Shown: positions 16,846 through 34,888 of the stretch, piece after piece
Numbering within the stretch: position 1 is the first letter of the stretch
Layout: each line of letters opens with the position of its first letter
NCBI GenBank assembly: GCA_016841045.1
Contig: JAENZX010000030.1
Coordinates: forward strand, 7,055-43,791
Direction of reading: 5' to 3'
Length of the DNA: 36,737 nucleotides
From: Thermincola carboxydiphila
Lineage (GTDB): Bacteria > Bacillota > Thermincolia > Thermincolales > UBA2595
Made by a program: the position numbers and the translations under genes
Notes under the pieces: model-generated
What the model was told of the DNA's origin: nothing
Database searches by the model: none
What the model saw: the letters and a program-made list of their open reading frames with translations, nothing else

Positions 16846-16860
16846 TATACATAAGTATAG

Positions 16861-16940
16861 CGGAGAGAGTGGGATTCGAACCCACGTACGGTTCATCACC
16901 GCACACTCGATTTTGAGTCGACCGCTTTCAACCAACTCAA
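16861..16940 (-). pseudogene. Degenerate tRNA (Ser-like body, CAA anticodon), 5' acceptor strand missing
   Basis: On the minus strand a D-arm, an anticodon arm with loop CTCAAAA, a long variable arm, a good T-arm (GTGGG TTCGAAT CCCAC) and the 3' acceptor strand TCTCTCC with discriminator G are present. The matching 5' acceptor strand GGAGAGA is absent, CCA is not encoded, and one anticodon-stem pair is mismatched. G73 and the acceptor suggest tRNA-Ser, but the loop would read Leu UUG. It is probably a dead remnant and overlaps the end of the acyltransferase gene. Confidence 0.65.
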
Positions 16941-17936
16941 ACTTTTAATCCTAAAAGAAGCTAAAACCGATCTTATATAACCGGGCGTTAAAGTTAATAC
17001 AAAAGCACATACTACAGCAAAAAATATTAGAATTATAATTTCTAAATTTGTATTTATCTTAGTCCATAAGTCAAAATAATGAAACAAAAGGATTAAAAAT
17101 CCATGAAGCAAATAGGGAGCCATTGTTTTAGCTCCGAGGGCTGAATAAAACTTTCGTTCATTGGGGATAAGGAGCAGAAAAAAAGCTGATGATGTAAGTT
17201 GAAAGATTAAAAGTATTAGACGATAAAAACCTGCATACCACTCTGAAAAACCAATATTTTCATAAGAAAGGTATCCAAATAATAGTTCTCGAACCGGCTG
17301 TGGAGGGTTTAAATAATAAACCGAAAGAGCTAATGTCAAAAAGTAAATAATTGAATTAAATTTGTTCCTATATGATATCATCTGAAATATTCGATTATTG
17401 TCTAAGTAATATCCCATCAAGAAGAATGGCAGAAACGTAATTGTCCTGGAAAGGCTCATAATTATACCAATATAACTACAATATCCTGCTATTATAGAAA
17501 GTACTATGGAGAAAAATATTGGGTGTTTTAGTTTTATAATAAAAGGTAAATATAACCTCCATAATAATAGACTAAGTAAAAACCACATTATCCAGTGCGG
17601 CAGCAATATTAAGCTTGCCAGATTGAACTTAAGAGCAAATATATAATTATTGGCTAGATAATAGAGTAATTGAAATAATAAAAATAGCGGTACAAATCTA
17701 AAGATTAAATCTTTTGGCTTTTTTAATTTCTTGGAAAAATATCCTGCTATCAAAACAAAAACAGGCATATGAAAAGTATAAATAGTTATAAAAATAACAT
17801 TTAGAAAACGACTGTAATTTAATAGTGGCTCAATAAAATGCCCCATCACTACCAATATAATTAATATAAACTTGGCGTTATCTAAGAAATTATTACGGTT
17901 TCTCTGTTCAGGTAGTCTCGAAGCTATTTCTGCCAT
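16896..17936 (-). CDS. Acyltransferase 3 family membrane protein
   Basis: A 346-residue integral membrane protein with about ten hydrophobic segments. The family N-terminus is present: NNFLDNAKFILIILVVMGHF, with the conserved His, then FHMPVFVLIAGYFSKK. Members O-acylate cell-surface sugars or other acceptors. The ATG at 17936 has GGGAG about 10 nt upstream. The last 14 or so residues (ending VDSKSSVR) are encoded by the tRNA remnant, so the original C-terminus may have been lost at a junction. AT-rich codon use fits the chromosome rather than the element to the right. Confidence 0.85.
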   Translation of the reverse strand: MAEIASRLPEQRNRNNFLDNAKFILIILVVMGHFIEPLLNYSRFLNVIFITIYTFHMPVFVLIAGYFSKKLKKPKDLIFRFVPLFLLFQLLYYLANNYIFALKFNLASLILLPHWIMWFLLSLLLWRLYLPFIIKLKHPIFFSIVLSIIAGYCSYIGIIMSLSRTITFLPFFLMGYYLDNNRIFQMISYRNKFNSIIYFLTLALSVYYLNPPQPVRELLFGYLSYENIGFSEWYAGFYRLILLIFQLTSSAFFLLLIPNERKFYSALGAKTMAPYLLHGFLILLFHYFDLWTKINTNLEIIILIFFAVVCAFVLTLTPGYIRSVLASFRIKSLSWLKAVDSKSSVR

Positions 17937-18148
17937 ATTAATCTGTCTCCCTCATTTATTGAATCTCCTTCTTTAATTCGACCAGAAATGGCAATTCCCT
18001 CCAACTGCTAAATTGAATCGTTTGGTTTGCCGCCGACTTCCTTCAGATTCCACCTCACGGCAGATACCCTTGTCTTAAGCTATGGCTGCTACTGCCTGAC
18101 CATTCGGGACTTTAACCCTATAGATAGCGCCCATGCCGCATGCAAAAA
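17937..18148. other. Gene-free stretch between acyltransferase and tRNA-Ser remnant
   Basis: I see no supported gene. An open frame across 18027-18302 runs through the tRNA remnant and is not credible. The middle part (about 18027-18140) looks like a dispersed non-coding or insertion-derived sequence, but I cannot name it. Confidence 0.4.
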
Positions 18149-18174
18149 CGGGTTACAGCAAAAAGCTGTAACCC
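18149..18174 (-). terminator. Terminator of the former tRNA-Ser(CGA) gene
   Basis: GGGTTACAGC and GCTGTAACCC form a perfect 10-bp stem with an AAAAA/TTTTT loop. On the minus strand it is followed by GTTTTTG. It lies 16 nt beyond the tRNA 3' end. Confidence 0.75.
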
Positions 18175-18189: not shown

Positions 18190-18249
18190 TGGCGGAGGAG
18201 AGGAGATTCGAACTCCTGGTAGAGCAAAACCCTACAATTGATTTCGAGT
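18190..18249 (-). other. Attachment site: 3' half of tRNA-Ser(CGA)
   Basis: On the minus strand the sequence runs from the anticodon loop CTCGAAA through a variable arm, a T-arm with TTCGAAT, acceptor CTCCTCC, discriminator G and encoded CCA. Upstream of the loop the anticodon stem and the whole D-arm and 5' acceptor are missing, and the foreign sequence begins. This is the classic scar of site-specific integration in a tRNA gene. The 5' half with a restored 3' half should lie at the far end of the element, beyond the window. Confidence 0.8.
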
Positions 18250-18398
18250 TATTTGAAGGCAAGTCCTTATGGATTCACGAGAGTAACTTTAAGAGAAGAT
18301 GAAATCCCGCAAACCCGCATAAATAAAGGCTTTTCAGGCACAAACGCCGATATTTCCCCGCAGGGGCATACCACACTGATTTAGCGGTTTTCAGGGCA

Positions 18399-18420
18399 AA
18401 GTGTAGAAAAAGTGTAGAAA
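18399..18420. repeat. Tandem 11-bp direct repeats near the element end
   Basis: AAGTGTAGAAA occurs twice head to tail, about 150 bp inside the attachment site. This is a likely place for integrase arm-type or excisionase sites. Between 18250 and 18578 there is no gene. Confidence 0.45.
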
Positions 18421-18581
18421 AACAACCGGCGAAATAACCTTAAGATACTTTAGTTTCCCGGCGATTTGAAAAAGCAAAACCAAGCGTACCCTACCATTGA
18501 CATTGATTTTTAACAGAACATCCTGCAGCAGACAGAGCATAATTCTCTGTCCTAAGGATCAATGTGATGGGAGGAACGATG

Positions 18582-19142
18582 ATGGCAACCGACTACTCTT
18601 ACCTTCTGGCTGAATATCCGGAGAAGATAAGTCAAGACCAGCTTTACAGAATTTGCCGCATAAGCAAACGAAAAGCCACATGGCTTTTGGAGAACGGATA
18701 TATCCCCTGCGAGGATACCGGCAAAAAGACCCGCAGGTTTAAAATCCAAATAACCGACGTTATTGCATACCTTACCCGCTTGGAAGAATCTCCTGAGACC
18801 CTGCTGACACCACCGGGGATATTTTCAAGCGGAATAAAATATAAACCGAAGCGCCAAACGGCGAAGGCAATCAACTCCGAGAAGTTTATGGCAATGCTTA
18901 AGAACAAGTGGCACACTTTTCCGGATGCCCTCACGGTAAATGATGTCACAAAGCTAACGGGATACTGCCAAACCACAGTATCCGAGTGGATAAAGACAAA
19001 AAAGATAACTGGGGTATGGTATTACAACAAATACTTAGTGCCAAAGGAGTGCCTGATAGAATATATGGCAACTAAAGCGCACCGTATCCATCAGAAGTCC
19101 AAGAAGCACATGGAGCTGTTGGAGCAGTATCAAAATCCCTAA
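18582..19142 (+). CDS. Excisionase-like double helix-turn-helix protein
   Basis: A protein of about 186 residues with two MerR/excisionase-type DNA-binding modules. The first is at about 12-58 (QDQLYRICRISKRKATWLL, then the wing TRRFKIQITDVIAYL). The second is at about 115-165 (LTVNDVTKLTGYCQTTVSEW, then YYNKYLVPKECLIEYM). The ATG at 18582 is chosen because GGGAGG lies 7 nt upstream; GTG 18564 and ATG 18579 are alternatives. As the gene nearest the attachment site it may direct excision or control the integrase. The role is inferred from fold and place. Confidence 0.65.
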   Translation: MATDYSYLLAEYPEKISQDQLYRICRISKRKATWLLENGYIPCEDTGKKTRRFKIQITDVIAYLTRLEESPETLLTPPGIFSSGIKYKPKRQTAKAINSEKFMAMLKNKWHTFPDALTVNDVTKLTGYCQTTVSEWIKTKKITGVWYYNKYLVPKECLIEYMATKAHRIHQKSKKHMELLEQYQNP

Positions 19143-19151
19143 ATGACATAG

Positions 19152-19184: not shown

Positions 19185-19185
19185 T

Positions 19186-20400
19186 TCAATTCCAATCATC
19201 GGTCAGAAGAAATTCACGTATGTTCCGATGCTTGAGGCCATCCCTGCTCATATCAAATTCGTCATAGGACACAACATACTTGGGATAGTTATCTTTTATA
19301 GCATCATATGCTCCGAATTCACGCTGGATCGTTTCCTCAGAGGCAAGCAGATAGGCCACTTGAACATAGAGCTTTTGCCCTTGCTTTTCAGCGATAAAAT
19401 CAATCTCTTTTTCTCCTGCTTTTCCAACGGTAACTTTATAGCCCCGGCGCAGCAACTCCATAAAAACAATATTCTCAAAAATGAGATTGATATCTTTCAT
19501 ATTCCCGCCGAAAACAGCCTCCCTGATTCCGTGGTCAGCAATGTAGTATTTTTCATTGACAGTGAGGATTTTCTTCCCCTGCAAATCCTGTCTGCGGACA
19601 CGGTAGAATAAAAAAGCATCCTCGCAAGCCTTGATGTAGTTCAATATGGTTTCCGGCGCAACGGTGCGGCCCTCGCTTTTGAGATATTTGGAAATTGCCG
19701 TAGCGGAAAAGGTCGTACTGACATTTGCCGTAATATAGGCAATGATGCGCTCCAGCAAATCAACATCCCGGATATTGTTGCGTTTCACAATGTCTTTCAG
19801 GACAACGGAGTTGTAGAGATCCTGCAGATACTGACGGCTCGGCTGTTCGGCATAGCGGAGATTGCTCAAATATGGCATCCCGCCATCAGTCAGATACCGG
19901 GTAAACATCACTCTCGAATCGGCATTGGGAAAAACCTCTTGATACAGCTTTGAAAACTCTTGAAAAGAAAAAGGATAAATCACAAACTCTACATACCTTC
20001 CTGCAAGGTATGTGGCCAGTTCTCCCGAAAGCAGCTTGGCATTGGAGCCGGTAATATAAATATCACAGTCAAATTCAACCCGAAAGGAATTGATGCACTT
20101 TTCCCAGCCGGCAACTTCTTGAATTTCATCAAAAAACAGATATGCCTTGCCGGAGATGTCCTTCACCCGCCTGGTAATTTCCTCATGCAAGGCGTTTGCA
20201 AAGCAAAGGTGTGCGTTGCTCATATTCTCAAAATTGATAGAAATAAACTGATTTTCATTTACACCGGAGGTGACCAGTTCTTGCTTAATTAATTCCAGCA
20301 TAACAGATTTTCCGCTGCGCCGGATGCCGGTTAAAACCTTAATGAGCTCGTTTCCTATAAAGGGACGAATGCGGCTCATATATAACTCTCGTTTGATCAT
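19186..20400 (-). CDS. AAA ATPase with DUF4143 domain
   Basis: A 404-residue protein. Residues about 15-150 are an AAA_14 ATPase with Walker A TGIRRSGKSVML, Walker B AYLFFDEIQEV and the sensor YITGSNAKLLSGE. Residues about 195-360 are a DUF4143 domain with DIVKRNNIRD and EIDFIAE, the latter nuclease-like in appearance. The ATG at 20400 has SD AAAGGAGG; a longer frame to 20451 lacks a better SD. It is the only leftward gene in this part of the element, which suggests an inserted cargo gene. Its biological role is unknown. Confidence 0.85.
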   Translation of the reverse strand: MIKRELYMSRIRPFIGNELIKVLTGIRRSGKSVMLELIKQELVTSGVNENQFISINFENMSNAHLCFANALHEEITRRVKDISGKAYLFFDEIQEVAGWEKCINSFRVEFDCDIYITGSNAKLLSGELATYLAGRYVEFVIYPFSFQEFSKLYQEVFPNADSRVMFTRYLTDGGMPYLSNLRYAEQPSRQYLQDLYNSVVLKDIVKRNNIRDVDLLERIIAYITANVSTTFSATAISKYLKSEGRTVAPETILNYIKACEDAFLFYRVRRQDLQGKKILTVNEKYYIADHGIREAVFGGNMKDINLIFENIVFMELLRRGYKVTVGKAGEKEIDFIAEKQGQKLYVQVAYLLASEETIQREFGAYDAIKDNYPKYVVSYDEFDMSRDGLKHRNIREFLLTDDWN

Positions 20401-20451
20401 AAACAAAAGACCTCCTTTGTTATACCTGATACCATAACAGCACAATATCAC

Positions 20452-20501: not shown

Positions 20502-20551
20502 TACAAAAACTATATTTCTACAAAATTCAACACATAAAGTGAAATTCAATT

Positions 20552-20610: not shown

Positions 20611-20626
20611 AGAAGGGAGGAAAGAT

Positions 20627-20870: not shown

Positions 20871-21596
20871 ATGAGATATGACAGTGAATTTCTGAGATTG
20901 CTCAAGGAGAAGTATCCGCCCGGTACACGAATCTGTCTCACAAAAATGAACGATCCCTATGCCCCCATACCACCCGGTACAGAAGGTACGGTGGATTTTA
21001 TTGACGATGCGTGCGGAATTCACATGCAATGGGACAACGGGCGCTCCCTTGCCCTCATTCCTGGGGAGGACTCGTTCTCAAAAATATCTCCTCCGCTCCA
21101 GACTCTCAAGCTATATATGCCGCTTACTGTAAAGGAATACGAGCGCAACGAATGGGGAGATTGGGAGGATTATCCCTCGGAGCTGGATCAAGACACTATC
21201 CTCTCCTATCACGATTCTATCCTTGCAGCTATTGTGAAAGAGCGAAGGCCTGAGGAAACAGAACGCGGACTCATGAAATACTATCCTAAAAATGACACCG
21301 TAAATCAGAAAGTTCAGTCCTTCTTTTTTACAGTGGAACAGATTGGCAGCAAGCTGATGGGTGTGGCCGAATGCCGCATACAAGGGAGTTTGAGTGATTC
21401 AGAGCTGGAGCAGCTTAAGGATTATGTTTCCGGTCAGGCATCAGACGGCTTTGGTGAAGGTTTTGAGCAGCATCCCATAAAAACAGGCAATGGTGAAATC
21501 TATGTCAGCCTATGGAGCAGTGATAAAAACTGGAGCATCATGACGCCGGATGAGTTGGCGCAAAGTCAACAGATGGGAGGAATGCAGCTTGGATAA
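20871..21596 (+). CDS. DUF4314-domain protein
   Basis: A 241-residue protein of unknown function. Residues about 15-70 form the DUF4314 domain, a small beta-barrel-like unit with GTRICLTKMNDPYAPIPPGT, GTVDFIDDACGIHMQWDNGR and SLALIPGEDSF. Residues about 80-241 are an acidic region with no motif I recognise. SD AAGGAGGAA precedes the ATG. DUF4314 is common on clostridial conjugative elements and plasmids, which supports the element assignment. Confidence 0.7.
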   Translation: MRYDSEFLRLLKEKYPPGTRICLTKMNDPYAPIPPGTEGTVDFIDDACGIHMQWDNGRSLALIPGEDSFSKISPPLQTLKLYMPLTVKEYERNEWGDWEDYPSELDQDTILSYHDSILAAIVKERRPEETERGLMKYYPKNDTVNQKVQSFFFTVEQIGSKLMGVAECRIQGSLSDSELEQLKDYVSGQASDGFGEGFEQHPIKTGNGEIYVSLWSSDKNWSIMTPDELAQSQQMGGMQLG

Positions 21597-21705
21597 TATC
21601 TTGACCGTTCTGACCGGAGATGAATAGCAGAATTTCTTTTGGTATTTGGTATAGCTTTCCTATAAAAAGTGTGGCATTGTGTTGTAATTGAAGGAGGTGG
21701 ACAGA

Positions 21706-21993
21706 ATGGAGTTATGGAAAGAGACCTTACAAACTGCATTAGAAGAACGTCTTGACGCAGCGTTTGCGGAATTGGCAGAATCCAACCCTGCTGTCCGGGA
21801 GGCTGTCAAACAGCAGCGGGATGCATCGGTGCTGGTGAAGGATCATCCGAAATACGATGACGAATTGAAGCAGATAGTGGACTCATATTTTGAAGCTATG
21901 CAGCTTTTGCTCGGTGAATACAGCCGACATCTGTACATCCAAGGCGCCAAGGACTGTGTGGTGGTTTTGAGAGAGCTTGGCGTAATCAAGTAG
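21706..21993 (+). CDS. Small helical protein of unknown function
   Basis: A 95-residue acidic, all-helical protein (MELWKETLQTALEERLDAAF; later YFEAMQLLLGEYSRHLYIQG). A very strong SD (AAGGAGGTGG) fixes the ATG at 21706. It stands alone between a promoter-less gap and a terminator at 21993. Similar small proteins occur on Clostridia mobile elements; the function is unknown. Confidence 0.55.
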   Translation: MELWKETLQTALEERLDAAFAELAESNPAVREAVKQQRDASVLVKDHPKYDDELKQIVDSYFEAMQLLLGEYSRHLYIQGAKDCVVVLRELGVIK

Positions 21994-22018
21994 CGCAGGC
22001 AATGATGCCTGTGCTTTT
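21993..22018 (+). terminator. Terminator after the 95-residue protein gene
   Basis: GCGCAGGCA and TGCCTGTGC pair around ATGA and are followed by TTTTTT. Confidence 0.85.
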
Positions 22019-22033
22019 TTAGATTCAAAATCA

Positions 22034-22077
22034 AAACAGGGCCGTTTCCCCAAACAGGAGGCGGCCCTGTTTTTTAT
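22034..22077 (+). terminator. Second strong terminator-like hairpin
   Basis: AAACAGGGCCG and CGGCCCTGTTT form an 11-bp stem followed by TTTTATC. Coming only 16 nt after another terminator, it isolates the next operon and may instead be a leader element of it. Confidence 0.75.
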
Positions 22078-22126
22078 CATTTGTCCTGCCTTTCTTTCCG
22101 GGGAAGCGGTCGGAAAGGAGGTAAAC

Positions 22127-22459
22127 ATGTTGAAAAAACAGCTTGCGGAATATCTGCACCGCTATCATCACGGTGCGGAAAATGCCGTCACCAGCAAAGA
22201 ACTGGAACACACCTTTTGTGTTTCCGGTAAGGAACTGCGCGACATTGTCAACAGCCTGCGTCGCGAAGGCATCCCTATCGCCAGCGATCAAAGCGGATAT
22301 TTTTACGCAAGAACCGAAGCGGAAATCCGGCTGACCATCCGTCATATGAGAAGCCGTATCAGCGGGATCAGCGCCGCAATCGGAGGGCTCAGGCATTCCC
22401 TCACGGCATTTGACGATACGCAGATATGCCTGCCGCTGGAGGGAGGTGATGACTCCTGA
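22127..22459 (+). CDS. Small winged-helix-like protein
   Basis: A 110-residue basic protein. Residues about 5-60 look like a winged helix: AVTSKELEHTFCVSGKELRD, then IVNSLRREGIPIASDQSGYF. The end is helical. SD GGAAAGGAGG lies before the ATG. Its stop overlaps a CTG that may start the methylase gene, so the two should be translated together. It may regulate or recruit the methylase; this is inference. Confidence 0.65.
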   Translation: MLKKQLAEYLHRYHHGAENAVTSKELEHTFCVSGKELRDIVNSLRREGIPIASDQSGYFYARTEAEIRLTIRHMRSRISGISAAIGGLRHSLTAFDDTQICLPLEGGDDS

Positions 22460-22467
22460 ACAGCTTT

Positions 22468-23298
22468 ATGTCATGGATCGGCGGCAAAAAATCCCTGCGT
22501 GAGCTGATCGTCACACTGTTTCCCCTCTACTACGAAAGATACATTGAAGTATTCGGCGGAGGCGGCTGGATACTGTTTCACAAGCCGCCCGGTAACGACT
22601 TTGAGGTATATAACGATTTCAACGGACTGCTGGTTAACTTGTACCGCTGTGTACGGGAAAAGCCGGATGAACTGATAGAAGCACTGCGTTATGTCCTCAA
22701 CGCCCGCGCAGACTTTGACCTTGTTAAAAATACCCTCGCCCGTGACAGTCCTGCTTCCGATGTACAGAAGGCAGCCTGGTTTTACCAGCTTATCCGCTAC
22801 AGCTACGCATCGGGACTTACCAGCTATGGCAGTCAGCCCCATGATATGTGGTCCAATTTTCCACTGATTGAACAGGCTCACAGACGGCTTGCCAAAGTGG
22901 TGATCGAAAACAAGGACTTTGAGAAGTTGATTGGGCAATACGACCGCCCCGTCAGCTTTTTCTACTGTGACCCGCCGTACTTTGAAACCGAGGGCTACTA
23001 CAAAAACGTGGGTGAGGACGGCTTTACAGAAAAAGATCACATCCGCCTGCGGGATGCTCTGCTGCGAATTGAGGGCAAATTCCTGCTGTCCTACAATGAC
23101 TGCGATTTTATCCGCAATTTGTATGATGCGCCGGGTATCCAAATTGATTCCTATACCCGCATCAATAACATCAAGCAGCGGTATGACAACGGAGCGCAGT
23201 TCCCCGAAATCCTCATTGCCAATTACGATATGGGGGAACGGACGAGGGAGGCCCCGGCGCAACTCAATTTATTTGACAACGGCGGGATTGAGTTCTGA
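22468..23298 (+). CDS. D12-class DNA adenine methyltransferase
   Basis: A protein of about 276 residues that transfers a methyl group from SAM to N6 of adenine. Motif X/I is seen in MSWIGGKKSLR and the FGGGGWILF loop. The catalytic motif IV CDPPYF is at about residue 170. LSYNDCDFIRNLY follows, then the C-terminal LNLFD. The alpha arrangement and length match Dam-like orphan enzymes of phages and mobile elements. The ATG at 22468 has no nearby SD. CTG 22456, 8 nt from GGGAGGTG and overlapping the upstream stop, may be the true start and would add LNSF. No restriction endonuclease is adjacent. The target site is unknown. Confidence 0.88.
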   Translation: MSWIGGKKSLRELIVTLFPLYYERYIEVFGGGGWILFHKPPGNDFEVYNDFNGLLVNLYRCVREKPDELIEALRYVLNARADFDLVKNTLARDSPASDVQKAAWFYQLIRYSYASGLTSYGSQPHDMWSNFPLIEQAHRRLAKVVIENKDFEKLIGQYDRPVSFFYCDPPYFETEGYYKNVGEDGFTEKDHIRLRDALLRIEGKFLLSYNDCDFIRNLYDAPGIQIDSYTRINNIKQRYDNGAQFPEILIANYDMGERTREAPAQLNLFDNGGIEF

Positions 23299-23363
23299 CC
23301 GAAAAACCAAAAAAGGAACACCGTACCTATCTGGGCAAATATTTAAAGGAGAGGATAGATTCC

Positions 23364-23936
23364 ATGAAAAACAATCAGAAGGAAAATGAGCAGGCCCTGC
23401 AAATCCCCATAGATATTCAGCAGCGTTGCGGCTTTGCCGATGCGGAAACCCTTGCGGTGACAGCCGTCGAAGGCGTATGCGTCATTCACAAGGGTGAAAT
23501 GACGGCGCTGGAGCTTATTCGAGTTATTGCCACACTCAGCGAGTTGGCGAGCGATATGACGGTTCTCCTTGCCGGAGCCTGCGGTCTTTGCAACAACTGC
23601 GAGGATGAAAATCCGGAAACAAACAAGAAAGGCGGCTGCAATCACAACCCCGCTGAATGGGTAGCAGACTGCTCCCTTTGCCGTGATCTGCTGGACGAAA
23701 ACCAGGACATCCGCATCCCCGACTATCTGCTGGAGGAAGCGGGTATCCCCAAGGGTACCAGATTAAAAGCCTATACCGATGATGACAGCGGCGAAATTAC
23801 AGTCGTAAAGGCAGACATCCAACAAGATATTCGCGATGTACCGGCCTGCATTCTTTCGCTGCTGGCGCAAAACGGTATCTGCCTTGCAGCATTGGATGAA
23901 TTGATCATGCAGGAAAGCATCATCTATGGCAAATAA
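23364..23936 (+). CDS. Cysteine-rich protein of unknown function
   Basis: A 190-residue acidic protein. Residues about 10-40 look like a swapped-hairpin AbrB-like strand region (IPIDIQQRCGFADAETLAVT). Residues about 70-112 carry CGLCNNC, GGCNHNP and CSLCRD, which look like metal-binding cysteines. Residues about 120-150 again resemble an AbrB-type hairpin (IPDYLLEEAGIPKGTRLKAY). SD AAAGGAGAGG precedes the ATG. The function is unknown; a DNA-binding or regulatory role is possible. Confidence 0.6.
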   Translation: MKNNQKENEQALQIPIDIQQRCGFADAETLAVTAVEGVCVIHKGEMTALELIRVIATLSELASDMTVLLAGACGLCNNCEDENPETNKKGGCNHNPAEWVADCSLCRDLLDENQDIRIPDYLLEEAGIPKGTRLKAYTDDDSGEITVVKADIQQDIRDVPACILSLLAQNGICLAALDELIMQESIIYGK

Positions 23937-23977
23937 CCTACCCTCATTCTTTAAGACATTATCCGGGAGGTGGGAAG

Positions 23978-24529
23978 ATGTCGGGGATTTCCCTGAAAAA
24001 CGGCCTCATTTCCTACTATGGAAACCCGGCCGGTTATACTGATAAAGAAAAAGCCATTGTGGACAGCATTTTTCAAAATGATGAGCTGACCATCTGGCTC
24101 CAAAGCCGCTCCTTAACGCCGAAGTGGACAGATGGCGTGATGGAGCGGCTTCTTGCTGGCGAACGTGCGGATGGCATGGAAGGCGTACTGCTGAAAAATG
24201 TTCGCATCTGGCAGTTAAAGCCGGACGTGGACGTGCACATGAAATTTATACCCTATGAAGAAATGGTGCGGCGATTTGGAGAGCCATCTCTCGAAAACTA
24301 CAACATCGTCTATGACGGTCAGCTCGACACCAACGACCTCGAAGCCATCTACACAAGGTGCAATGCAAATCACCCGCCCGGCTATAACGGACACTCTCTT
24401 TCCATGTCTGATGTGGTGGAGCTGTATGACGCCCAAGGCAGCGAATATCACTACTGCGACCGTTTTGGATTCCAGAAAATCAGCTTCGGGGGCTCAGAGC
24501 AGACCCAAGCAATGAAAATGAATATGTAG
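23978..24529 (+). CDS. YodL-domain protein
   Basis: A 183-residue protein. The C-terminal part (about 105-172) has the YodL-type pattern: NYNIVYDGQL, LEAIYTRCN, PPGYNGHSLSMSDVVELYD, then YHYCDRFGFQKISF. The N-terminal half is not recognised. Such domains accompany conjugative-element proteins in Clostridia; the function is unknown. SD GGGAGGTGGG lies before the ATG. A terminator overlaps the stop. Confidence 0.7.
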   Translation: MSGISLKNGLISYYGNPAGYTDKEKAIVDSIFQNDELTIWLQSRSLTPKWTDGVMERLLAGERADGMEGVLLKNVRIWQLKPDVDVHMKFIPYEEMVRRFGEPSLENYNIVYDGQLDTNDLEAIYTRCNANHPPGYNGHSLSMSDVVELYDAQGSEYHYCDRFGFQKISFGGSEQTQAMKMNM

Positions 24530-24550
24530 GCAGCCTTGGGCTGCCTTTTC
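24528..24550 (+). terminator. Terminator after the YodL-domain gene
   Basis: AGGCAGCC and GGCTGCCT pair around a 3-nt loop and are followed by TTTCTC. It marks the upstream boundary of the surface/pilus gene cluster. Confidence 0.8.
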
Positions 24551-24584
24551 TCGCCCAAAAAACAATAGAACGGAGGAAAACTAC

Positions 24585-24848
24585 ATGGTTCAGGTTATCA
24601 AAAAAATGAAAAGTACAGCTTCACACAAGATTACAGCGGCAAAGGATGCCGCAGCCAATCTCGCTTTCCGTGGCAGGAACCTTCTCTCAGGTAATGCCGG
24701 AGAAGGTTATATTGACACAGCCATCAAAATCTTGCTGGCGGTTGTCATTGGCGCCCTGCTCCTTGCGGGGCTCTATGCCCTGTTCGGGGAAACGGTACTC
24801 CCGACCCTGACCCAGCGCATTAAGGAAATGTTCAACTACGCCGGTTAG
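24585..24848 (+). CDS. Pilin-like small membrane protein, copy 1 (DUF6133-like)
   Basis: An 87-residue protein with a basic 39-residue leader, then GEGYIDTAIKILLAVVIGAL and a single hydrophobic segment (about 45-66), and a short tail LTQRIKEMFNYAG. If cut after Gly39, Asp44 is at +5, where type IV pilins have Glu. This fits processing by the prepilin peptidase encoded at 29422. The predicted 48-residue mature part is identical at 47 positions to copy 2 (29202-29432), while the leaders are unrelated. SD CGGAGG precedes the ATG. The pilin role is inferred; the family name is from memory. Confidence 0.75.
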   Translation: MVQVIKKMKSTASHKITAAKDAAANLAFRGRNLLSGNAGEGYIDTAIKILLAVVIGALLLAGLYALFGETVLPTLTQRIKEMFNYAG

Positions 24849-24881
24849 AAATACCGGAAATTTTGAGAAGGAGGAATAAAC

Positions 24882-25241
24882 ATGCCTAAGAATACAACAT
24901 CGCCAGTTCCCAAGTACGATGTGAAAATTCATTCCATCCGTCCAGCTGGAAGCTGCAAGGCCACCGCCTCGGTCAATATTTACGGTGTTTTCGCCGTTCG
25001 GGGCATCAAGATTATGGAGGGCTCCAAGGGGCTGTTCATTTCCATGCCCAGCTACAAGGCCGGAAACGGCGAGTACAAGGATATCTGCTTTCCTTGTACC
25101 AAGGAGTCCAAAGCGGAATTTGACAAGGCGGTTATCGGGGCTTACCAGCAGACGCTCACTCAAGGACAGTCCGCCGCACAGAAACAGGAATCTTCCGAAC
25201 TCCAGCAGGAGAAAAGTCAGCCTGTCATGGGCGGGATGTAG
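24882..25241 (+). CDS. SpoVG family protein
   Basis: A 119-residue protein. Residues about 14-90 match SpoVG: KIHSIRPAGSCKATASVNIY, FAVRGIKIMEGSKGLFISMP and GEYKDICFPCTKESK. SpoVG is a DNA/RNA-binding regulator of septation, sporulation and cell-surface genes in Firmicutes. This copy differs from chromosomal versions in its Cys-containing FPCTKE stretch and a Gln/Ser-rich tail. SD AAGGAGGAA lies before the ATG. Placed just ahead of the large surface protein, it may regulate the cluster; that is inference. Confidence 0.88.
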   Translation: MPKNTTSPVPKYDVKIHSIRPAGSCKATASVNIYGVFAVRGIKIMEGSKGLFISMPSYKAGNGEYKDICFPCTKESKAEFDKAVIGAYQQTLTQGQSAAQKQESSELQQEKSQPVMGGM

Positions 25242-25251: not shown

Positions 25252-28200
25252 ATGAACGAGAAAATGAAAAAGCCTCTCGGCATCCTTCTTGTGGTTTGCT
25301 TGGTGGTTTCCCTGCTTGCGGGCAGCGCCTATGCGGTAAACCGATATTTTGAGGATGCCAAAGGTCATTGGGCGGAGGAAGCTATTCAAATTCTTACAGA
25401 TAAAGGCGTCATCAGCGGTTATCCCGATGGCTTGGTACACCCTGATGCCATCATCACCAGAGGCGAGTTTGCAGCCTTGATCGCAAGAACCATGGAACTG
25501 CCAGAGCCGAATGAAAACCAAATCACCATTCATTTCACCGACATTGCCGGCCACTGGTCAGAGAAGCATGTGGAAGCACTCACTATTGCAGGAATCATCC
25601 AAAAGGATGATTTCGGCACAAAGTTTCTACCAGACGAGCCCATCACCCGCATAGAAATGATCCGTATGCTGGTAAGAGCCATCGGCAAAGGCGACCATGA
25701 CGCATCCTGCTCCTGCGCAACCGGCTTTTCAGATGACAGCGAACTTGGTGACGCAGACAAAGCCTGCATCTGCGCCGGTAAAAAATATGGTATTGTAGAC
25801 GGCTATCCGGACGGAACGGTTAAACCGAACGGCAATGCCACCCGCGGAGAAGCCTTTGAAATGCTGGTGGATGCTGATAAAGCAAAGGAGCAGATCAAGA
25901 AAGAGGAAACAGCGAAGCCGCCAGCAAACACCAAACCGAAGGATAAGCACTCAAACTCCGACAGTAGCGGCGGATCTTCCTATGTTCCTGCTCCGCAGTT
26001 CAGCTTTACGCTGCCCAAAACCGCTTATACTGCCGAGGAAATTGAGATCAAGCCGGAAAGCCGCTATGTAAGCGGCGTGACATGGTCGGCTCTTAAAAAC
26101 GGGCTCCCTGCAGAGCTTTCCGAGCTGGCAGAGGGTACGCTGGACGCAAACGGCGGCAAAGTCAAATTTACGAAAGCAGGCAGCATTACCCTGATTGCCA
26201 CAGCAAAAAACAGCCGGGGCATTACGGTAACCCATGAGCAGACAATCAGCATCTATCCGGTGGTAAAGGCTGCTTTTTCATTGCCTGAAACCGCCCACAC
26301 CGACACGGCCGTGTCGGTGGAACTTGCTACTGAAAACCTCGGCGCTAATTCGGTAGTGTGGTCCCTTCAAAAAGATGGAGCTGCCGCGGATCTGGAAAAA
26401 GCTCTCTCTGGTGAGTTAAACTCTGCTGGCGGTACGGTTTTGTTTAAGGAAAAAGGCAGCTATACGCTGACCGCCTCCATAACAGACGAGCTGGGCAAAA
26501 CCGTTACTGCACAAAGCAACATCACCATCTATCCTGTGGCGGAGGTAAAGCTTACCCTGCCGGCGGTTTCCCATACGGATAAAACCATCACTCTACAGAC
26601 AGAAACAAAAGAAACGGATGGCCTCGCTTTAATCTATACCCTGACCAGAAACGGTGAACCTGCCGACATCGGCACATTTATCGAAGGCAGTCCATCCGAT
26701 GGCAGCATCCGCTTTAAGGAAAAAGGCGTGTATGTGCTGACCGCTTCTGTCACAGACGCTACAGGCAGAGTGTTTGCCGATACAGCGGATATCACCGTCT
26801 ATCCGGTGGGATCAGCGGGATTTTATCTGCCTGAAATCTTCCATACCGATAAAACCGTTACGGTGGAAGCGGTGTTCGGCGAAATCGGAAGTCATACCGC
26901 CACATGGTCGCTGCTGCATGACAGCAAGGAGGTATCCCTCACCGACGCGGCGGAGGGCACGCTGGGCAACAGTGGCGGCAAGCTGAAGTTTCACTCCAAG
27001 GGCAGCTATGTCCTGAAAGCGGAATTCACCGATGATGGCGGCAGAACCTACCGCTATGAACAGAAATTCAAGGTTTATCCTGTGCCGGCCGTAAGCTACA
27101 GTCTGCCAAAGTACGCTCATACCGATACCGATGTTGTAGTCAAAACGGAAACCGACAATCTGGACGACCTTACCATCGAATGGCTGGCGGATAACACATT
27201 TGGCTTTCAAGACTGGCCAACCTATGTAAGCGGCAGGCTCACAAACAACGGCGGCACAATCCGATTTAAAAGAGCCGGTATCTATGAGCTGGTGGCGAGG
27301 GTTACCGATGAAACAGGACGGGTATTTTTGTATGAAAGCAAGGACAGGTGCGAGGTGCTTCCCGTTCTGACCATTGACTTTGAGCTTCCTGCCTTTGCCT
27401 ACACCGATACCGACCTTGACATCAGAACCCACGGCAACAACAATGTTCTGCCGGTAGAGTGGTCCGTCAGCAAGGACGGCAAAAATATTCCGCTCTCAGA
27501 GGCATTCAGCGGAAGTCTCACCCCGCAGGGAGGAAAAATTACTTTCCGAAGCGATGGCGAATATGTTCTAACCGCCATGATGACCGATTATCTGAAACGC
27601 AGTTACTCCCACAGCGAAAGTATACGCATCCTGCCGGTGGTGCAGTACACATTCACCATACCGCAGACCGTTCACTACGGTGCGGAGTTTGATGTTGTCG
27701 CAAAAGATGTTCAGCATATCGGCAGCTATACCGTAGTTTGGACGCTGCAAAAGGACGGCAATGCGGCACAGTATCAGGGAACGCTGGACAATGACGGCGG
27801 CAAGATTGCCATCCGTGACACCGGCGACTTTATCCTGACCGCTTCTGTCATAGACAGCAAAGGGCGTGTAACCACTCATTCGGAGAGCATCGCGGTAACC
27901 AATACTGCGCCGAATGCCCCTGTGGTAACGGCAATTCCCTCTCGTACCGCCAAGGACGGCAAGTTCCTTGTAGACATTACCGCCAGTGCTGACGATCCCG
28001 ATGGCGATTCGGTGACATTGGAGTATGAGGGTACTGCGTCTGACAGCTACTATGCACCGGGTACCCATACCATCCGCATCAGAGCAAAGGATATCGCCGG
28101 GGATTATTCACCGTGGACGGAAAAAACCTTCACCGTGACCAATTCCGCTCCCACTGTTACCCTGACAGTTGAACCAACCCGCACGGTCAAGGACGGCAAA

Positions 28201-29190
28201 TTCCTTGTCAATATCAGCGCTGCAGCCTCTGATGCGGATGGCGACCCAACCACGCTGGAATGGGAAAACAAGGCGGCGGACAATTATTACGCCGCAGGTA
28301 CTCACACCGTGCGTGTCCGTGCAAAAGACATTGCCGGAGCTTATTCCCCCTGGGCAGAAAAGACATTTACCATCACCAGCTCTGCACCTGTTGTCACACT
28401 GACCGCAGCTCCCACCCGAACAGCGAATAACGGCAAGTTCCTTGTCGATATCAGCGCCACAGCGTCCGATGCAGACGGCGATGCAACCACGCTGGAATGG
28501 GAAAATAAGGCGGCTGACAACTACTATGCCGTTGGTACTCACACCATCCGTGTCCGTGCCAAGGATGCAACCGGGCTATATTCGCAATGGGTATCCAAAA
28601 CCTTTACCATCGCAAACTCTGCGCCGACTGCGCCAGTCATTACCAGAACGCCAAGCGGCAATAGCGTACCGCCGGGAACGCCAGTCACCATCAAAGCGAC
28701 CAGCTCCGACCCCGATGGCGATCCTGTCACTCTCGTTTGGGAGGGCCGAAACGCAGAAACACAGACCTACCCGCTGGGAAGGAATGTGGTTCGTGTCAAG
28801 GCGGTGGATTCTGCGGGTGCTGAATCTTCCTGGTCTGCCATCGTGTTCTTTGTGGCGGACTCCAACGGCAGCGGCGGTATGACGCTCACCGGACCCGATT
28901 CGGTTATTCTCGAAAACGGACTTGAAGGCGCAACCATCACGGAGTATACCTTTACCGTACCTCCGGTCAGCGGTCACAGTGGCTCTGACTTTGGCAGAGT
29001 GCGCGGTTACAACAAGCTGACCAGCCAGTGGGATCAGCTTGACTATGGTACCACCTCAAATGGCATTACTTTCAAGAGGACGCTGGGCGCAGGCGTATAC
29101 AGCAAGCTCGAATTTTATTACTACACCAACCATAATTGTATGTATAACAAGTCCAACATCACCTACTCGGTGACCTACCACTTTGAATAG
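25252..29190 (+). CDS. Giant S-layer-homology surface protein with eleven Ig-like repeats
   Basis: A 1312-residue secreted protein. A signal peptide (about 1-29, ending AGSAYA) is followed by three SLH domains at about 32-82, 96-146 and 155-205 (YFEDAKGHWAEEAI, HFTDIAGHWSEKHV, and a degenerate third with GYPDGTVKPNGNATRGE). These bind pyruvylated cell-wall polymers. A Lys/Ser linker follows. Then come seven roughly 90-residue repeats (about 244-885) with AHTDT, GSYTLTASITD and YPV cores, and four roughly 80-residue PKD/cadherin-like repeats (about 886-1205) with SDADGD and GTHTVRVRAKD. The last 100 residues form a separate domain. SD GGAGG fixes the start. It lies between the two pilin-like genes and is probably an adhesin displayed with the pilus. 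Confidence 0.9.
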   Translation: MNEKMKKPLGILLVVCLVVSLLAGSAYAVNRYFEDAKGHWAEEAIQILTDKGVISGYPDGLVHPDAIITRGEFAALIARTMELPEPNENQITIHFTDIAGHWSEKHVEALTIAGIIQKDDFGTKFLPDEPITRIEMIRMLVRAIGKGDHDASCSCATGFSDDSELGDADKACICAGKKYGIVDGYPDGTVKPNGNATRGEAFEMLVDADKAKEQIKKEETAKPPANTKPKDKHSNSDSSGGSSYVPAPQFSFTLPKTAYTAEEIEIKPESRYVSGVTWSALKNGLPAELSELAEGTLDANGGKVKFTKAGSITLIATAKNSRGITVTHEQTISIYPVVKAAFSLPETAHTDTAVSVELATENLGANSVVWSLQKDGAAADLEKALSGELNSAGGTVLFKEKGSYTLTASITDELGKTVTAQSNITIYPVAEVKLTLPAVSHTDKTITLQTETKETDGLALIYTLTRNGEPADIGTFIEGSPSDGSIRFKEKGVYVLTASVTDATGRVFADTADITVYPVGSAGFYLPEIFHTDKTVTVEAVFGEIGSHTATWSLLHDSKEVSLTDAAEGTLGNSGGKLKFHSKGSYVLKAEFTDDGGRTYRYEQKFKVYPVPAVSYSLPKYAHTDTDVVVKTETDNLDDLTIEWLADNTFGFQDWPTYVSGRLTNNGGTIRFKRAGIYELVARVTDETGRVFLYESKDRCEVLPVLTIDFELPAFAYTDTDLDIRTHGNNNVLPVEWSVSKDGKNIPLSEAFSGSLTPQGGKITFRSDGEYVLTAMMTDYLKRSYSHSESIRILPVVQYTFTIPQTVHYGAEFDVVAKDVQHIGSYTVVWTLQKDGNAAQYQGTLDNDGGKIAIRDTGDFILTASVIDSKGRVTTHSESIAVTNTAPNAPVVTAIPSRTAKDGKFLVDITASADDPDGDSVTLEYEGTASDSYYAPGTHTIRIRAKDIAGDYSPWTEKTFTVTNSAPTVTLTVEPTRTVKDGKFLVNISAAASDADGDPTTLEWENKAADNYYAAGTHTVRVRAKDIAGAYSPWAEKTFTITSSAPVVTLTAAPTRTANNGKFLVDISATASDADGDATTLEWENKAADNYYAVGTHTIRVRAKDATGLYSQWVSKTFTIANSAPTAPVITRTPSGNSVPPGTPVTIKATSSDPDGDPVTLVWEGRNAETQTYPLGRNVVRVKAVDSAGAESSWSAIVFFVADSNGSGGMTLTGPDSVILENGLEGATITEYTFTVPPVSGHSGSDFGRVRGYNKLTSQWDQLDYGTTSNGITFKRTLGAGVYSKLEFYYYTNHNCMYNKSNITYSVTYHFE

Positions 29191-29201: not shown

Positions 29202-29432
29202 ATGAAATATCTGTTTTGCAAGCTGAAAAGCAAGACTGCCACAGCCATCTCTAAAACTCATGGCATGCTTTCAAGCAATTGCGGGGAGGGCTATATTGAC
29301 ACGGCCATCAAAATTCTGCTGGCGGTTGTCATTGGCGCCCTGCTGCTGGCAGGGCTTTACGCACTGTTCGGAGAAACGGTGCTCCCGACATTGACCCAGC
29401 GCATCAAGGAAATGTTCAACTATGGAGGTTAA
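29202..29432 (+). CDS. Pilin-like small membrane protein, copy 2 (DUF6133-like)
   Basis: A 76-residue protein with a 28-residue leader unlike that of copy 1, then the same GEGYIDTAIKILLAVVIGAL core and tail. The predicted mature part differs from copy 1 only at the penultimate residue (Gly for Ala). DNA differences between the copies are mostly third-position changes, which implies selection on the mature sequence. Its stop overlaps the start of the prepilin peptidase gene by 11 nt, which ties it to that enzyme. SD AGGAGG precedes the ATG. Confidence 0.78.
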   Translation: MKYLFCKLKSKTATAISKTHGMLSSNCGEGYIDTAIKILLAVVIGALLLAGLYALFGETVLPTLTQRIKEMFNYGG

Positions 29433-29874
29433 CAACACCCTTCAAACGGTGCTTTTTTCTTTCCTGCTTATAGCAGCTTCTGTGTGGGATATCCGCAAAC
29501 GGATCATCCCGGACAGTACCTGTATCTTGATTGCATTGACGGGGCTGATTGATTTCAGTCCCGTCAATTTTTTGGGAATCCTTGCGGCGCTTCCGTTTTT
29601 GACCGCTGCTTTATGTAAGCCTGACAGTATTGGAGGCGGGGATATAAAGTTCACTGCCGCCGCTGGCCTTGCCATCGGCTTTTGGGGATGCGTGGTCGGA
29701 CTGATACTCGGTCTGACCGCCTCCCTCATTTTTTACATCTTAAATCAGGCTATCAGAAAGCTCAAAAAACTGGAGCCGCAGAGAGCGTCACAGTTAACCC
29801 TGCCTATGGCACCGTTTTTATCCCTCGGCTTTCTTGCTGCAGCCATTATGAATATTGGAGGAACCATCCTATGA
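29422..29874 (+). CDS. Prepilin peptidase, A24 family (TadV/CpaA type)
   Basis: A 150-residue membrane aspartyl protease without the N-terminal methylase domain, as in TadV/CpaA. The two catalytic Asp motifs are visible: WDIRKRIIPD (about 22-31) and GGGDIKFTAA (about 72-81, the GxGD motif). About five hydrophobic segments are seen. It would remove the leaders of the GEGYID-type proteins of this cluster at the membrane. The start overlaps pilin-like copy 2 and the stop overlaps a mini-ORF, so translation is coupled. Confidence 0.9.
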   Translation: MEVNNTLQTVLFSFLLIAASVWDIRKRIIPDSTCILIALTGLIDFSPVNFLGILAALPFLTAALCKPDSIGGGDIKFTAAAGLAIGFWGCVVGLILGLTASLIFYILNQAIRKLKKLEPQRASQLTLPMAPFLSLGFLAAAIMNIGGTIL

Positions 29875-29918
29875 AAAAAATCCTTACCGATAGGAGGAAA
29901 ATTTATGAGCCTATTTAA
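29871..29918 (+). CDS. Possible 15-residue coupled mini-ORF
   Basis: An ATG that overlaps the prepilin peptidase stop (ATGA) and follows GGAGGAACCATCCT opens a frame encoding MKKILTDRRKIYEPI. It runs across the SD of the next gene and stops 14 nt inside that gene. It may serve only to couple translation. Whether the peptide has a role is unknown. Confidence 0.3.
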   Translation: MKKILTDRRKIYEPI

Positions 29919-30729
29919 AAACCGCACGGTTGTCGGCGTAATCTGCATTCTTTTATCCCTTCTCATCTGTTTCGGAGTGACACCGCTATTCAATAAATCC
30001 ATCAGCCAGAAAACAGAGATTGTCCGTGTAACAAAGGAAATTAAAGCAGGTGATGAAATCACCAAAGACATGATTCAAACCGTGGAAGTGGGCGGCTTCG
30101 GACTTCCCGAAAATGTCATACGCCAGAGCGAAACAGTTATTGGCAAGTACGCTAAAGCCGACCTTTCCGTTGGTGACTATATTCTGAATACCAAATTGTC
30201 CGACACTCCCGCCGCTGAGAACGCCTATCTGTACAATCTGGACGGCACCAAACAAGCCATGTCGGTGACCATCAAGAGCTTTGCAAACGGCCTTTCCGGA
30301 AAGCTTCAGAGCGGCGATATCGTGTCGGTCATAGCACCTGACTATAAAAAGCAGGGTGCCACCGTTATCCCTGCCGAGTTGAAATATGTTGAAGTAATCA
30401 GCGTAACCGCATCCTCCGGCTATGACGCTAATACCGGGGAAGTTCCTGCAGGGGATGATGAACGGGAACTGCCCTCCACGGTGACCCTGCTTGTCTCTCC
30501 CGAACAAAGCAAGATACTGGCAGAGCTGGAGTCTGACGGCAAGCTCCACCTGTCCCTTGTTTACCGGGGCTCCCATGCCAACACCACCAAATTTTTAGAA
30601 GCACAGGACAAAGTGATCGCCGCCCTCTATCCTGCAGAACAGACAAAAGACAGCCCTTCTGACTCTCATGCCGAGGGAACGGAAGAAAACCCCGTATCCG
30701 AAGCGCCTGCAGAAAGCGAGGTGCAGTGA
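29905..30729 (+). CDS. CpaB/RcpC-like Flp pilus assembly protein with SAF domain
   Basis: A 274-residue protein with an N-terminal membrane anchor (about 9-28). A SAF domain follows (about 40-102: VTKEIKAGDEITKDMI, VIGKYAKADLSVGDYIL). Then comes the RcpC-type beta domain with LSGKLQSGDIVSVIAPDY and STVTLLVSPEQSKIL. The C-terminal 35 residues are acidic and disordered. In Tad systems CpaB helps assemble the pilus at the envelope. SD AGGAGG fixes the ATG. The stop overlaps the next start (TGATG). Confidence 0.85.
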   Translation: MSLFKNRTVVGVICILLSLLICFGVTPLFNKSISQKTEIVRVTKEIKAGDEITKDMIQTVEVGGFGLPENVIRQSETVIGKYAKADLSVGDYILNTKLSDTPAAENAYLYNLDGTKQAMSVTIKSFANGLSGKLQSGDIVSVIAPDYKKQGATVIPAELKYVEVISVTASSGYDANTGEVPAGDDERELPSTVTLLVSPEQSKILAELESDGKLHLSLVYRGSHANTTKFLEAQDKVIAALYPAEQTKDSPSDSHAEGTEENPVSEAPAESEVQ

Positions 30730-31544
30730 TGCTGAACTTCAAGAAAAAGAGCATCTTCACACGACAATCTGCCGAGGAAGATATCACGCAGGAGATGGAA
30801 CCTCAGAGCGGCATTCTTGCCGTTTGGGGCTCACCCGGCAGCGGCAAGACGACCGTGGCGGTCAAGCTGGCGAAGTATCTTGCCGACCGGAAGAAAAACG
30901 TGGTGCTTCTGCTGTGTGACATGACCGCACCCATGCTGCCCTGCATCTGTCCGCCCTCGGCGCTGGAATGCGAGCATTCACTGGGCAGCGTCCTTGCAGC
31001 GGCTCATGTGACGGATGCTCTCATCAAGCATAATCTGGTGACGCTAAAAAAGCACAGACATCTCACCATCCTCGGCATGAAAAAGGGTGAGAACGAATAC
31101 ACCTACCCGCCTTATGAGCAGGTACAGGTACTTGAACTGATGGATGGTCTGCGGAAAATTGCGCCATTTGTGGTGGTGGATTGCGGCAGCTATATTGCCA
31201 ACGACATCCTCTCCGCCGTGGCGCTCATGGAAGCCGACAACGTTTTGCGACTTGCCAATGCCGACCTAAAATCGGTGAGCTATCTCTCCAGTCAGCTTCC
31301 TCTGCTTCGGGATTCCAAATGGGATGCGGATAAGCAATATAAGGTTGCAAGCAATGTAAAACCCCAACAGGCCGGCGAGCAGATCGGACAGGCGCTGGGA
31401 TCGGTGGCCTTTACCCTGACCCATTCGCAGGAATTGGAGGAACAGTATCTTGCAGGCAATCTGCTTGCCGATCTGTCCCTGAAGGACAGCCGTCAATTCC
31501 GCAGAGAAATTGAAAAAATTGCAAGGGAGGTGTTCGGATGTTAG
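30729..31544 (+). CDS. CpaE/TadZ-like P-loop ATPase
   Basis: A 271-residue MinD/ParA-like protein. The P-loop is GSPGSGKTTVAVKLAKYLA (about 34-52) and lacks the deviant ParA KGG form. CDMTAPMLPC follows, then FVVVDCGSYIANDIL as the Walker B region. TadZ/CpaE proteins place the Tad machine at the membrane or pole. The ATG overlaps the cpaB stop (TGATG), and its own stop overlaps the next ATG. A GTG one codon earlier is the only alternative start. Confidence 0.78.
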   Translation: MLNFKKKSIFTRQSAEEDITQEMEPQSGILAVWGSPGSGKTTVAVKLAKYLADRKKNVVLLLCDMTAPMLPCICPPSALECEHSLGSVLAAAHVTDALIKHNLVTLKKHRHLTILGMKKGENEYTYPPYEQVQVLELMDGLRKIAPFVVVDCGSYIANDILSAVALMEADNVLRLANADLKSVSYLSSQLPLLRDSKWDADKQYKVASNVKPQQAGEQIGQALGSVAFTLTHSQELEEQYLAGNLLADLSLKDSRQFRREIEKIAREVFGC

Positions 31545-33064: not shown

Positions 33065-33990
33065 CAACAATACTTTTAATTGCTTGCATCGGAATGATTG
33101 CAGGCTTTTTTATTCTGTTCGGTCTTACGCCAATGGAATTTACTTCCGCCGTATTCACAAAGCTCACCGGCAGACCCAAATCCCTCCGTGATGAGCTGGA
33201 CGAGTTCACCCGCAGAAAAAAGAAGTCCTATTTGCGCCGTGAAATAGACGAAGTGCAATCGATTCTTAGAGTAACCGGAAGGACGGAACGCTTTCCCATG
33301 CTCTGCGTCCTGTCCCTGTTATTTTTTGCCGTGGGCGCATCCATCGCCATCATGCTCTCAAACTTTTTTCTTATTCCTGTAATGGCGATAGGCTGTATGT
33401 TCCTGCCCTTCTGGTGGGTAAAGCTCACTGCCGGCCACTTCAAAAAGGACATTGCGGCGGAGCTTGAAACGGCACTTAGCATCATCACCACGGCCTACCT
33501 TAGAAACGAGGATATTCTGACGGCGGTGGAGGAAAATCTCCCATACCTGAACCCGCCTGTGCTGTCCGTATTCAAGGAATTTGTATCCCGTATTAAGTTA
33601 ATAGACCCGGATGTAATGGCGGCTCTCCATGATCTGAAAAGCCGGATTGACAACACTGTATATGCCGAGTGGTGCGATGCCCTCATTGCTTGTCAGCATG
33701 ACCGCAGTCTCAAAACCACCCTGACTCCCATCGTCAGCAAGCTCAGCGATATGCGTGTGGTCAACGCTGAGCTGGAAAACATGGTCTTTGAGCCCCGAAA
33801 GGAATTCATCGTCATGCAGGTTCTTGTCATCGGCAATATACCGCTCCTCCATTTTTTGAATCAGGACTGGTATCACACGCTGATGCACACACCATTGGGG
33901 CAGATTATCCTGACCATCTGTGCCGCCGTGATGTTTGTTTCCACAGCCTTTGTCATTAAGCTGACCCAGCCCATCGAATATCGAAGATAG
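33061..33990 (+). CDS. TadB-like type II secretion F-domain membrane protein
   Basis: A 309-residue inner-membrane platform protein. An N-terminal membrane segment (3-24) and a basic cytoplasmic stretch come first. Two further hydrophobic segments lie at about 80-120. The cytoplasmic F domain (about 135-245: ELETALSIITTAYLRNEDIL) follows, then C-terminal segments at about 250-300. It overlaps the TadA stop (ATGA), as in other tad operons, and is followed after 10 nt by TadC. Confidence 0.85.
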   Translation: MTTILLIACIGMIAGFFILFGLTPMEFTSAVFTKLTGRPKSLRDELDEFTRRKKKSYLRREIDEVQSILRVTGRTERFPMLCVLSLLFFAVGASIAIMLSNFFLIPVMAIGCMFLPFWWVKLTAGHFKKDIAAELETALSIITTAYLRNEDILTAVEENLPYLNPPVLSVFKEFVSRIKLIDPDVMAALHDLKSRIDNTVYAEWCDALIACQHDRSLKTTLTPIVSKLSDMRVVNAELENMVFEPRKEFIVMQVLVIGNIPLLHFLNQDWYHTLMHTPLGQIILTICAAVMFVSTAFVIKLTQPIEYRR

Positions 33991-34000
33991 GAGGACGCCT

Positions 34001-34873: not shown

Positions 34874-34888
34874 GTTGGAGGTGGCCAC

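Follow-up and report, generated by a model that had tools for sequence, protein, structure and literature searches.

A conjugative element at a split tRNA-Ser(CGA) gene of Thermincola carboxydiphila probably makes up for the cut with a tRNA gene of its own

Positions 18190-18249 of the window, the whole 36,737-nucleotide stretch of Thermincola carboxydiphila DNA that was analysed, very probably represent the left attachment junction of an ICE that recombines at a core of 8-9 bp, cuts the host tRNA-Ser(CGA) gene and compensates for the cut with a complete tRNA-Ser(CGA) that it carries. We further consider it fairly likely that this element stands for a widespread clostridial ICE family in which the carried tRNA is a self-renewing site, element-borne genes replace the host's only tRNA-Ser(CGA) one after another, ICEs nest in each other and the isotype follows the target. 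The interpretation given in an earlier note on this DNA is partly supported by these results.

The half tRNA and the left junction

The window corresponds to positions 7055-43791 of a contig (C34, 43,791 bases) in an assembly of 4.16 Mb and 75 contigs, and its right edge coincides with the contig end. This genome contains the half tRNA, a left end that is shared with other insertions and the continuation of the element onto a second contig, C33, which bears conjugation genes. The half tRNA (18190..18248, minus strand) is a stranded 3' half of a tRNA-Ser(CGA) that extends from the anticodon loop CTCGAAA to the CCA end. Read on the minus strand from 18248 to 18190, it has the order CTCGAAA-TCAAT-GTAGGGTTTTGCTCTACC (variable arm)-AGGAGTTCGAATCTCCT-CTCCTCC-GCCA and comprises the anticodon loop, the 3' anticodon strand, a long class-II variable arm, the T-arm, the 3' acceptor strand and CCA; a terminator-like hairpin follows downstream (18150..18174, minus strand). 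ARAGORN did not call the segment 18190-18248, because half of the molecule is missing. A covariance model, for which 12 tRNA-Ser genes from T. carboxydiphila and relatives were used, recovered it despite the missing half with an E value of about 1e-5 genome-wide, and chance is thereby excluded. Sequence and covariance model thus confirm the earlier description of a tRNA-Ser half that ends at the anticodon loop, with T-arm, acceptor and terminator to the left.

Similarity to the tRNA breaks off exactly at the anticodon loop, and the left end of the ICE begins to the right of it. The 150 bp next to the tRNA half, the conserved left end of the element (18250..18400, minus strand, ACTTGCCTTCAAATAA...), can be aligned, as far as ...TCAAATAACTCGAAAT, to the corresponding end of about 11 other insertions; beyond this point each of them runs into a different host tRNA-Ser(CGA) 3' half. 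The left end is shared by G366, Caproiciproducens (G398), Sinanaerobacter (G399), C. viride (G405), C. sporosphaeroides (G406), G407, G408 and G410. Comparison of left and right junctions in the relatives defines the recombination core ACTCGAAAT (18241..18249, minus strand), which is common to the tRNA and the element end. The proposal of a left attachment junction within the anticodon loop of tRNA-Ser(CGA) is therefore borne out by a junction that other insertions have in common, and the supposed foreign DNA to the right of 18249 turned out to be the left end and the genes of an ICE.

No second copy of the 60-bp segment 18190-18249 was found in the 4.16-Mb assembly by BLAST and pattern search. 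Its absence does not refute the junction, since this element family repeats only 8-9 bp and the far end is unassembled; the direct repeat of about 60 bp that had been expected is replaced by this short core in the relatives.

Genes of the element

A HTH_17 DNA-binding protein (18564..19142, plus strand, PF12728) adjoins the left end and is possibly an excisionase or a regulator. When 398 genomes of the phylum were searched with it, a 78% identical homologue was found at the same place in G366, a one-contig genome. It is followed by an AAA_14/DUF4143 ATPase (19186..20451, minus strand, Pfam) and, all on the plus strand, by DUF4314, D12 DNA methylase, YodL-like and SpoVG genes (20871..25241; Pfam and nucleotide similarity to the G366 element), a large surface protein with SLH and Ig-like/PKD domains (25252..29190; Pfam) and a Tad/Flp-like pilus set (29422..35284; domain matches). 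The latter consists of a prepilin peptidase, CpaB/RcpC, a ParA-like ATPase, a T2SSE ATPase, a weak T2SSF protein and DUF4320; such pilus genes on a conjugative element possibly serve mating contact.

Window positions 18240-36686 align with G366:C1 78186-56372 at 74-83% identity over most of the length, and the alignment stops exactly at the tRNA half. At its other end an insertion has interrupted an element gene, of which the 5' part lies here (36575..36686, plus strand; comparison with G366) and the remainder at the end of C33. This contig holds the rest of the element and is colinear with G366 at 66-80% identity, below that of the window. C33 end 46032 and window position 36686 meet at a single base of the G366 element, 56372. 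The break between the contigs splits one protein, with the N-terminal 36 residues on one side and the remainder on the other, and unassembled inserted DNA separates the two parts. The ends of this insertion are seen at window positions 36687-36737 and at C33:46039-46088, with a possible 5-bp duplication CTGCG; neither end recurs in the assembly or matches an Rfam family above the gathering score.

C33 contributes a MobL relaxase (PF18555), a VirD4-type coupling protein and Toprim. The complete G366 element encodes MobL, VirD4, a VirB4-like AAA_10 protein, TrbL and NlpC/M23 proteins. Given MobL, VirD4 and Toprim on C33 together with VirB4-like and TrbL proteins in G366, the element is an ICE: relaxase, coupling protein and components of a T4SS are all present, the T4SS parts being taken partly from G366. 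Phage structural genes were absent from the Pfam-scanned element proteins of the window, C33 and G366, and the element is not a temperate phage but carries conjugation genes instead. Between its junctions it measures 61-66 kb in G366, Caproiciproducens, C. viride and C. sporosphaeroides. C33 further holds an IS256-type transposase at its start and, on the same contig as the conjugation genes, a large serine recombinase (6115-7680, L096) that may belong to a nested element.

The far end of the element in relatives

Split halves, carried tRNA, integrase and nesting were all observed in relatives. At the far end of the G366 element, an intact tRNA-Ser(CGA) lies at a distance of about 200 bp from the stop codon of a tyrosine integrase gene. 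Searching one genome per species with this integrase yielded 42 loci, and almost every locus that combines a closely related integrase with intact ends has a complete tRNA-Ser(CGA) at equal distance. Similarity between the loci extends 160-170 bp upstream of the carried tRNA, up to CTCGAAATC; the tRNA-Ser 5' half outside this point differs from locus to locus and is host-specific. The order in the relatives is integrase, complete tRNA-Ser(CGA) and, about 165-190 bp further out, the host 5' half that ends with CTCGAAATC. Since the similarity ends there, beyond the complete tRNA, this tRNA lies inside the element, and it is the host tRNA that is cut in two.

The cut through the host tRNA-Ser(CGA) occurs in the relatives at the 8-9 bp core ACTCGAAAT and strands both halves; a long direct repeat is absent from relatives with this left end, as is any rebuilding of the host tRNA. 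If the outer 5' half is joined to the 3' half of the left end, a normal tRNA-Ser(CGA) with 7/7 acceptor pairs results for seven insertions (six genomes and a nested copy). Such empty-site joins were obtained for G366, G398, G399, G405, G407, G408 and G410, whereas mismatched halves from different hosts mostly give 4-6 acceptor pairs. Several draft genomes of relatives have the halves on separate contigs, and the pairing there rests on complementarity. The earlier note had predicted an integrase gene and an intact tRNA-Ser(CGA), completed by a 3' half of the element, at the right end. A tyrosine integrase and an intact tRNA are indeed found there in the relatives, with the right end unassembled in T. 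carboxydiphila itself; the idea of completion by a 3' half has to be given up, as the relatives show a whole carried gene and two stranded host halves.

Among 12 right ends, the carried tRNA is variable in 5 of 91 columns, all of them in the variable arm. Its flanks vary more, in 36 of 151 columns upstream and in 89 of 203 columns downstream towards the integrase, which makes the carried tRNA the most conserved part of this element end. Conservation of both halves indicates that it is more than a mere recombination site, which would not need it. A block TTGACTT...TATTAAAAT is conserved upstream of the carried tRNA and might suggest a promoter for it; a consensus promoter scan gives no score. 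More distant integrase relatives with about 58-65% identity (L125, L126, L127 and L138) carry a tRNA-Ser(GGA), and in L125, L126 and L138 the outer stranded 5' half is also that of a tRNA-Ser(GGA). To judge from these sequences, the carried isotype tracks the target of the integrase, which is Ser(CGA), or Ser(GGA) for the sister integrases.

The right end in Thermincola carboxydiphila

The tRNA/integrase end of the T. carboxydiphila element falls in an assembly gap, and we assume that this copy has the same type of right end as the relatives. Neither tRNA-Ser(CGA) nor tRNA-Ser(TGA) nor tRNA-Ser(GCT) is present in intact form in the assembly according to our covariance model, with 150 of the first-look candidates scored. 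The full tRNA-Ser(CGA) for which the earlier note had proposed to look was also not found in this assembly by BLAST, pattern search, the Rfam tRNA model or the tRNA-Ser covariance model, within the same scope of 150 scored candidates for the scans. Contig C18, which bears serS, ends inside tRNA-Ser(TGA). This break and the lack of the three intact genes would be expected if the tRNA cluster and the right end of the element share one gap. A close homologue of the G366 integrase was not detected in the contigs of this genome, the best match (32%) being located at tRNA-Leu(TAA), and the integrase of the present element could differ from that of G366. Searches of a plasmid collection gave ATPase matches and short right-end matches and nothing else.

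Four candidates were rejected. The half tRNA on C18 is not the 5' half of the right end but the tRNA-Ser(TGA) that follows serS and is cut by the contig end; a match on C60 is tmRNA-like (its 3' end), C13:49822 is a 5'-truncated tRNA-Leu copy and C28:28863 is a tRNA-SeC. On G000:C13, a 5'-truncated second copy of tRNA-Leu(TAA) (49831-49905) is located about 20 kb from the intact gene (70074-70159), and an integrase-like gene (69372-69869) lies near tRNA-Leu(TAA). This contig probably harbours a further tRNA-integrated island whose attachment site is close to the 5' end of the tRNA.

Earlier history of the locus

A second tRNA remnant (16857..16951, minus strand), labelled tRNA-Leu(caa) by ARAGORN, was recognised by comparison with G008 and by the covariance model as a decayed older tRNA-Ser(CGA), the displaced host copy. 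It is 89% identical over 84 nt to the intact tRNA-Ser(CGA) of G008 and retains the terminator of the relatives; its first ~12 nt are replaced, the 5' acceptor strand is missing, the anticodon is changed from CGA to CAA and CCA is lost. We reject an identity as tRNA-Leu; the gene is the orthologue of the relatives' tRNA-Ser(CGA). A cluster of tRNA-Ser(TGA), Ser(GCT), Arg(ACG), Arg(CCT) and Ser(CGA) is present, whole or in part, in G003, G004, G005 and G008; the radical-SAM/Lrp genes and tRNA-Ser(GGA) of the window recur in G008 behind its Ser(CGA).

As the host orthologue is the decayed gene at 16857-16951, the tRNA that is split at 18190 must be a second tRNA-Ser(CGA), a gene of the second generation, which the earlier note had overlooked. 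It was probably brought in by an earlier, now decayed element. Between the two remnants lie an acyltransferase gene (16896..17936, minus strand, PF01757), which runs with its 3' end into the decayed tRNA and is probably left over from an earlier insertion, and part of a group II intron (D1-D4; 17990..18064, minus strand, Rfam RF02001). Fragments similar to the intron region 17990-18130 occur in the relatives G003, G007 and G008. Remnants of a displaced tRNA-Ser(CGA) are found at this place in G003, G004 and G005, too; the locus is an insertion hotspot that has been hit before.

Nested arrays

The right ends of L099, L110 and L112 contain two successive cut 5' halves that are 192 bp apart, in the order of the host's 5' half, the cut carried tRNA of one copy and the intact carried tRNA of the next. 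L113 and L128 provide the matching left ends: here the 3' halves lie inside a carried tRNA, and the integrase of the older copy follows beyond. These cut carried tRNAs mean that with each element the existing tRNA-Ser(CGA) is lost and its successor brought in. G366:C1 12329-95640 is an array of tRNA-Ser(CGA) insertions, with two intact genes and three displaced 3' halves in 84 kb. A 2.6-kb insertion at G004:C16 3521-3588 (L085) has the identical TCAAATAACTCGAAATC junction and otherwise unrelated end sequence, and is possibly a small satellite that borrows the same integrase.

Proposed mechanism and alternatives

We propose that a tyrosine recombinase integrates the ICE into the anticodon loop of tRNA-Ser(CGA) via the 8-9 bp core ACTCGAAAT, with an intact tRNA-Ser(CGA) as predicted attB and ...TTCAAATAACTCGAAATCCACTCGGTC... 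as predicted attP. Integration would leave the host tRNA gene as two dead halves, and the complete tRNA-Ser(CGA) of the element, situated between its other end and the integrase gene, would replace the loss. Provided that it is expressed, the carried tRNA may take over decoding and so allow the host to survive the cut. It would also double as a fresh attachment site into which later copies enter, giving rise to nested arrays. Excision of the element is presumably possible.

That only half of a tRNA is there would fit a resemblance to tRNA by chance or a tRNA pseudogene, with no element junction involved. Such an explanation has next to no probability: the covariance model score speaks against it, and it is already refuted by the shared junctions, which match many independent insertions to the base. 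A second alternative is classical integration, in which attP carries the 3' half of tRNA-Ser(CGA), the host tRNA is rebuilt at the right and 18190-18249 is the displaced original half. Other elements do use the same tRNA in this way, as is evident from two near-identical 59-bp copies of the 3' half in G366 (12362-12420 and 93554-93612) and from an intact host tRNA there at 12329-12420. For the present element we regard it as improbable, because the 60-bp segment lacks a second copy in the assembly, every relative with this left end has the 8-9 bp core and a complete carried tRNA, and the host-orthologous tRNA-Ser(CGA) is the decayed gene at 16857-16951 and not 18190-18249.

It is rather unlikely that the half tRNA is an old, inactive scar of a fossil element that can no longer excise, with an intact tRNA-Ser(CGA) elsewhere in unassembled DNA. 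The interruption of the element within a gene at the C34/C33 break, the IS256-type transposase at the start of C33 and the lack of an integrase close to that of G366 in the assembly would all agree with this. However, the left end shows no more decay than in the relatives, conjugation genes exist on C33, and the missing integrase belongs where the assembly is missing, too. We favour an ICE with a compensating carried tRNA.

Comparison with known systems

In classical integration, as reportedly described by Williams in 2002, a tyrosine recombinase crosses over in the anticodon loop, the tRNA is reconstituted by a 3' half and the displaced 3' half is found at the distal end. The present element shares the type of recombinase, the anticodon-loop crossover and the distal position of the displaced 3' half, but its attP lacks a tRNA 3' half and both host halves are lost. 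Acidithiobacillus ICEs reportedly target the anticodon stem/loop of tRNAs (Castillo and others, 2018); they resemble our element as ICEs that recombine at this part of a tRNA.

The closest parallel is found among phages. For actinobacteriophages a tRNA-dependent lysogeny was described that features a short core, no reconstruction of the tRNA and a carried cognate tRNA that was shown to be required; Lactobacillus prophage Lj965 is cited as a further case (Guerrero-Bustamante and Hatfull 2024, PMC10865867). Similarly, attB is here situated in a tRNA gene, the core ACTCGAAAT is short, reconstruction does not occur, with both halves stranded in the relatives, and in nearly all close relatives with intact ends a complete tRNA of the same isotype is carried; for the T. 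carboxydiphila element, whose right end falls in the assembly gap, such a tRNA is predicted. In contrast to these phages, the present elements are conjugative (MobL relaxase, VirD4, VirB4-like, TrbL), their hosts are Clostridia and relatives, and they cut their target, tRNA-Ser(CGA) or, with the sister integrases, tRNA-Ser(GGA), within the anticodon loop. Their carried tRNA adjoins attP and serves as a landing site, which leads to nested arrays. The requirement for the tRNA was demonstrated for the phages; here it is putative, the observation being constraint on the carried tRNA sequence.

If our model is correct, the tRNA-dependent logic of phages recurs in conjugative elements of numerous genera among Clostridia and their relatives, and a tRNA gene can be used as a target without a long tRNA-matching attP. 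Such an element would be hard to lose unless the tRNA is recreated, stacks of ICEs at one tRNA would be explained, and a core host tRNA gene could be swapped horizontally. We found no description of tRNA-dependent integration by ICEs in the literature searched, the limited coverage of which makes this weak evidence of absence. What looks new in comparison with the phage systems is the conjugative version, its spread over clostridial genera, the reuse of the carried tRNA on the attP side as a landing site and the switching of the isotype with the target.
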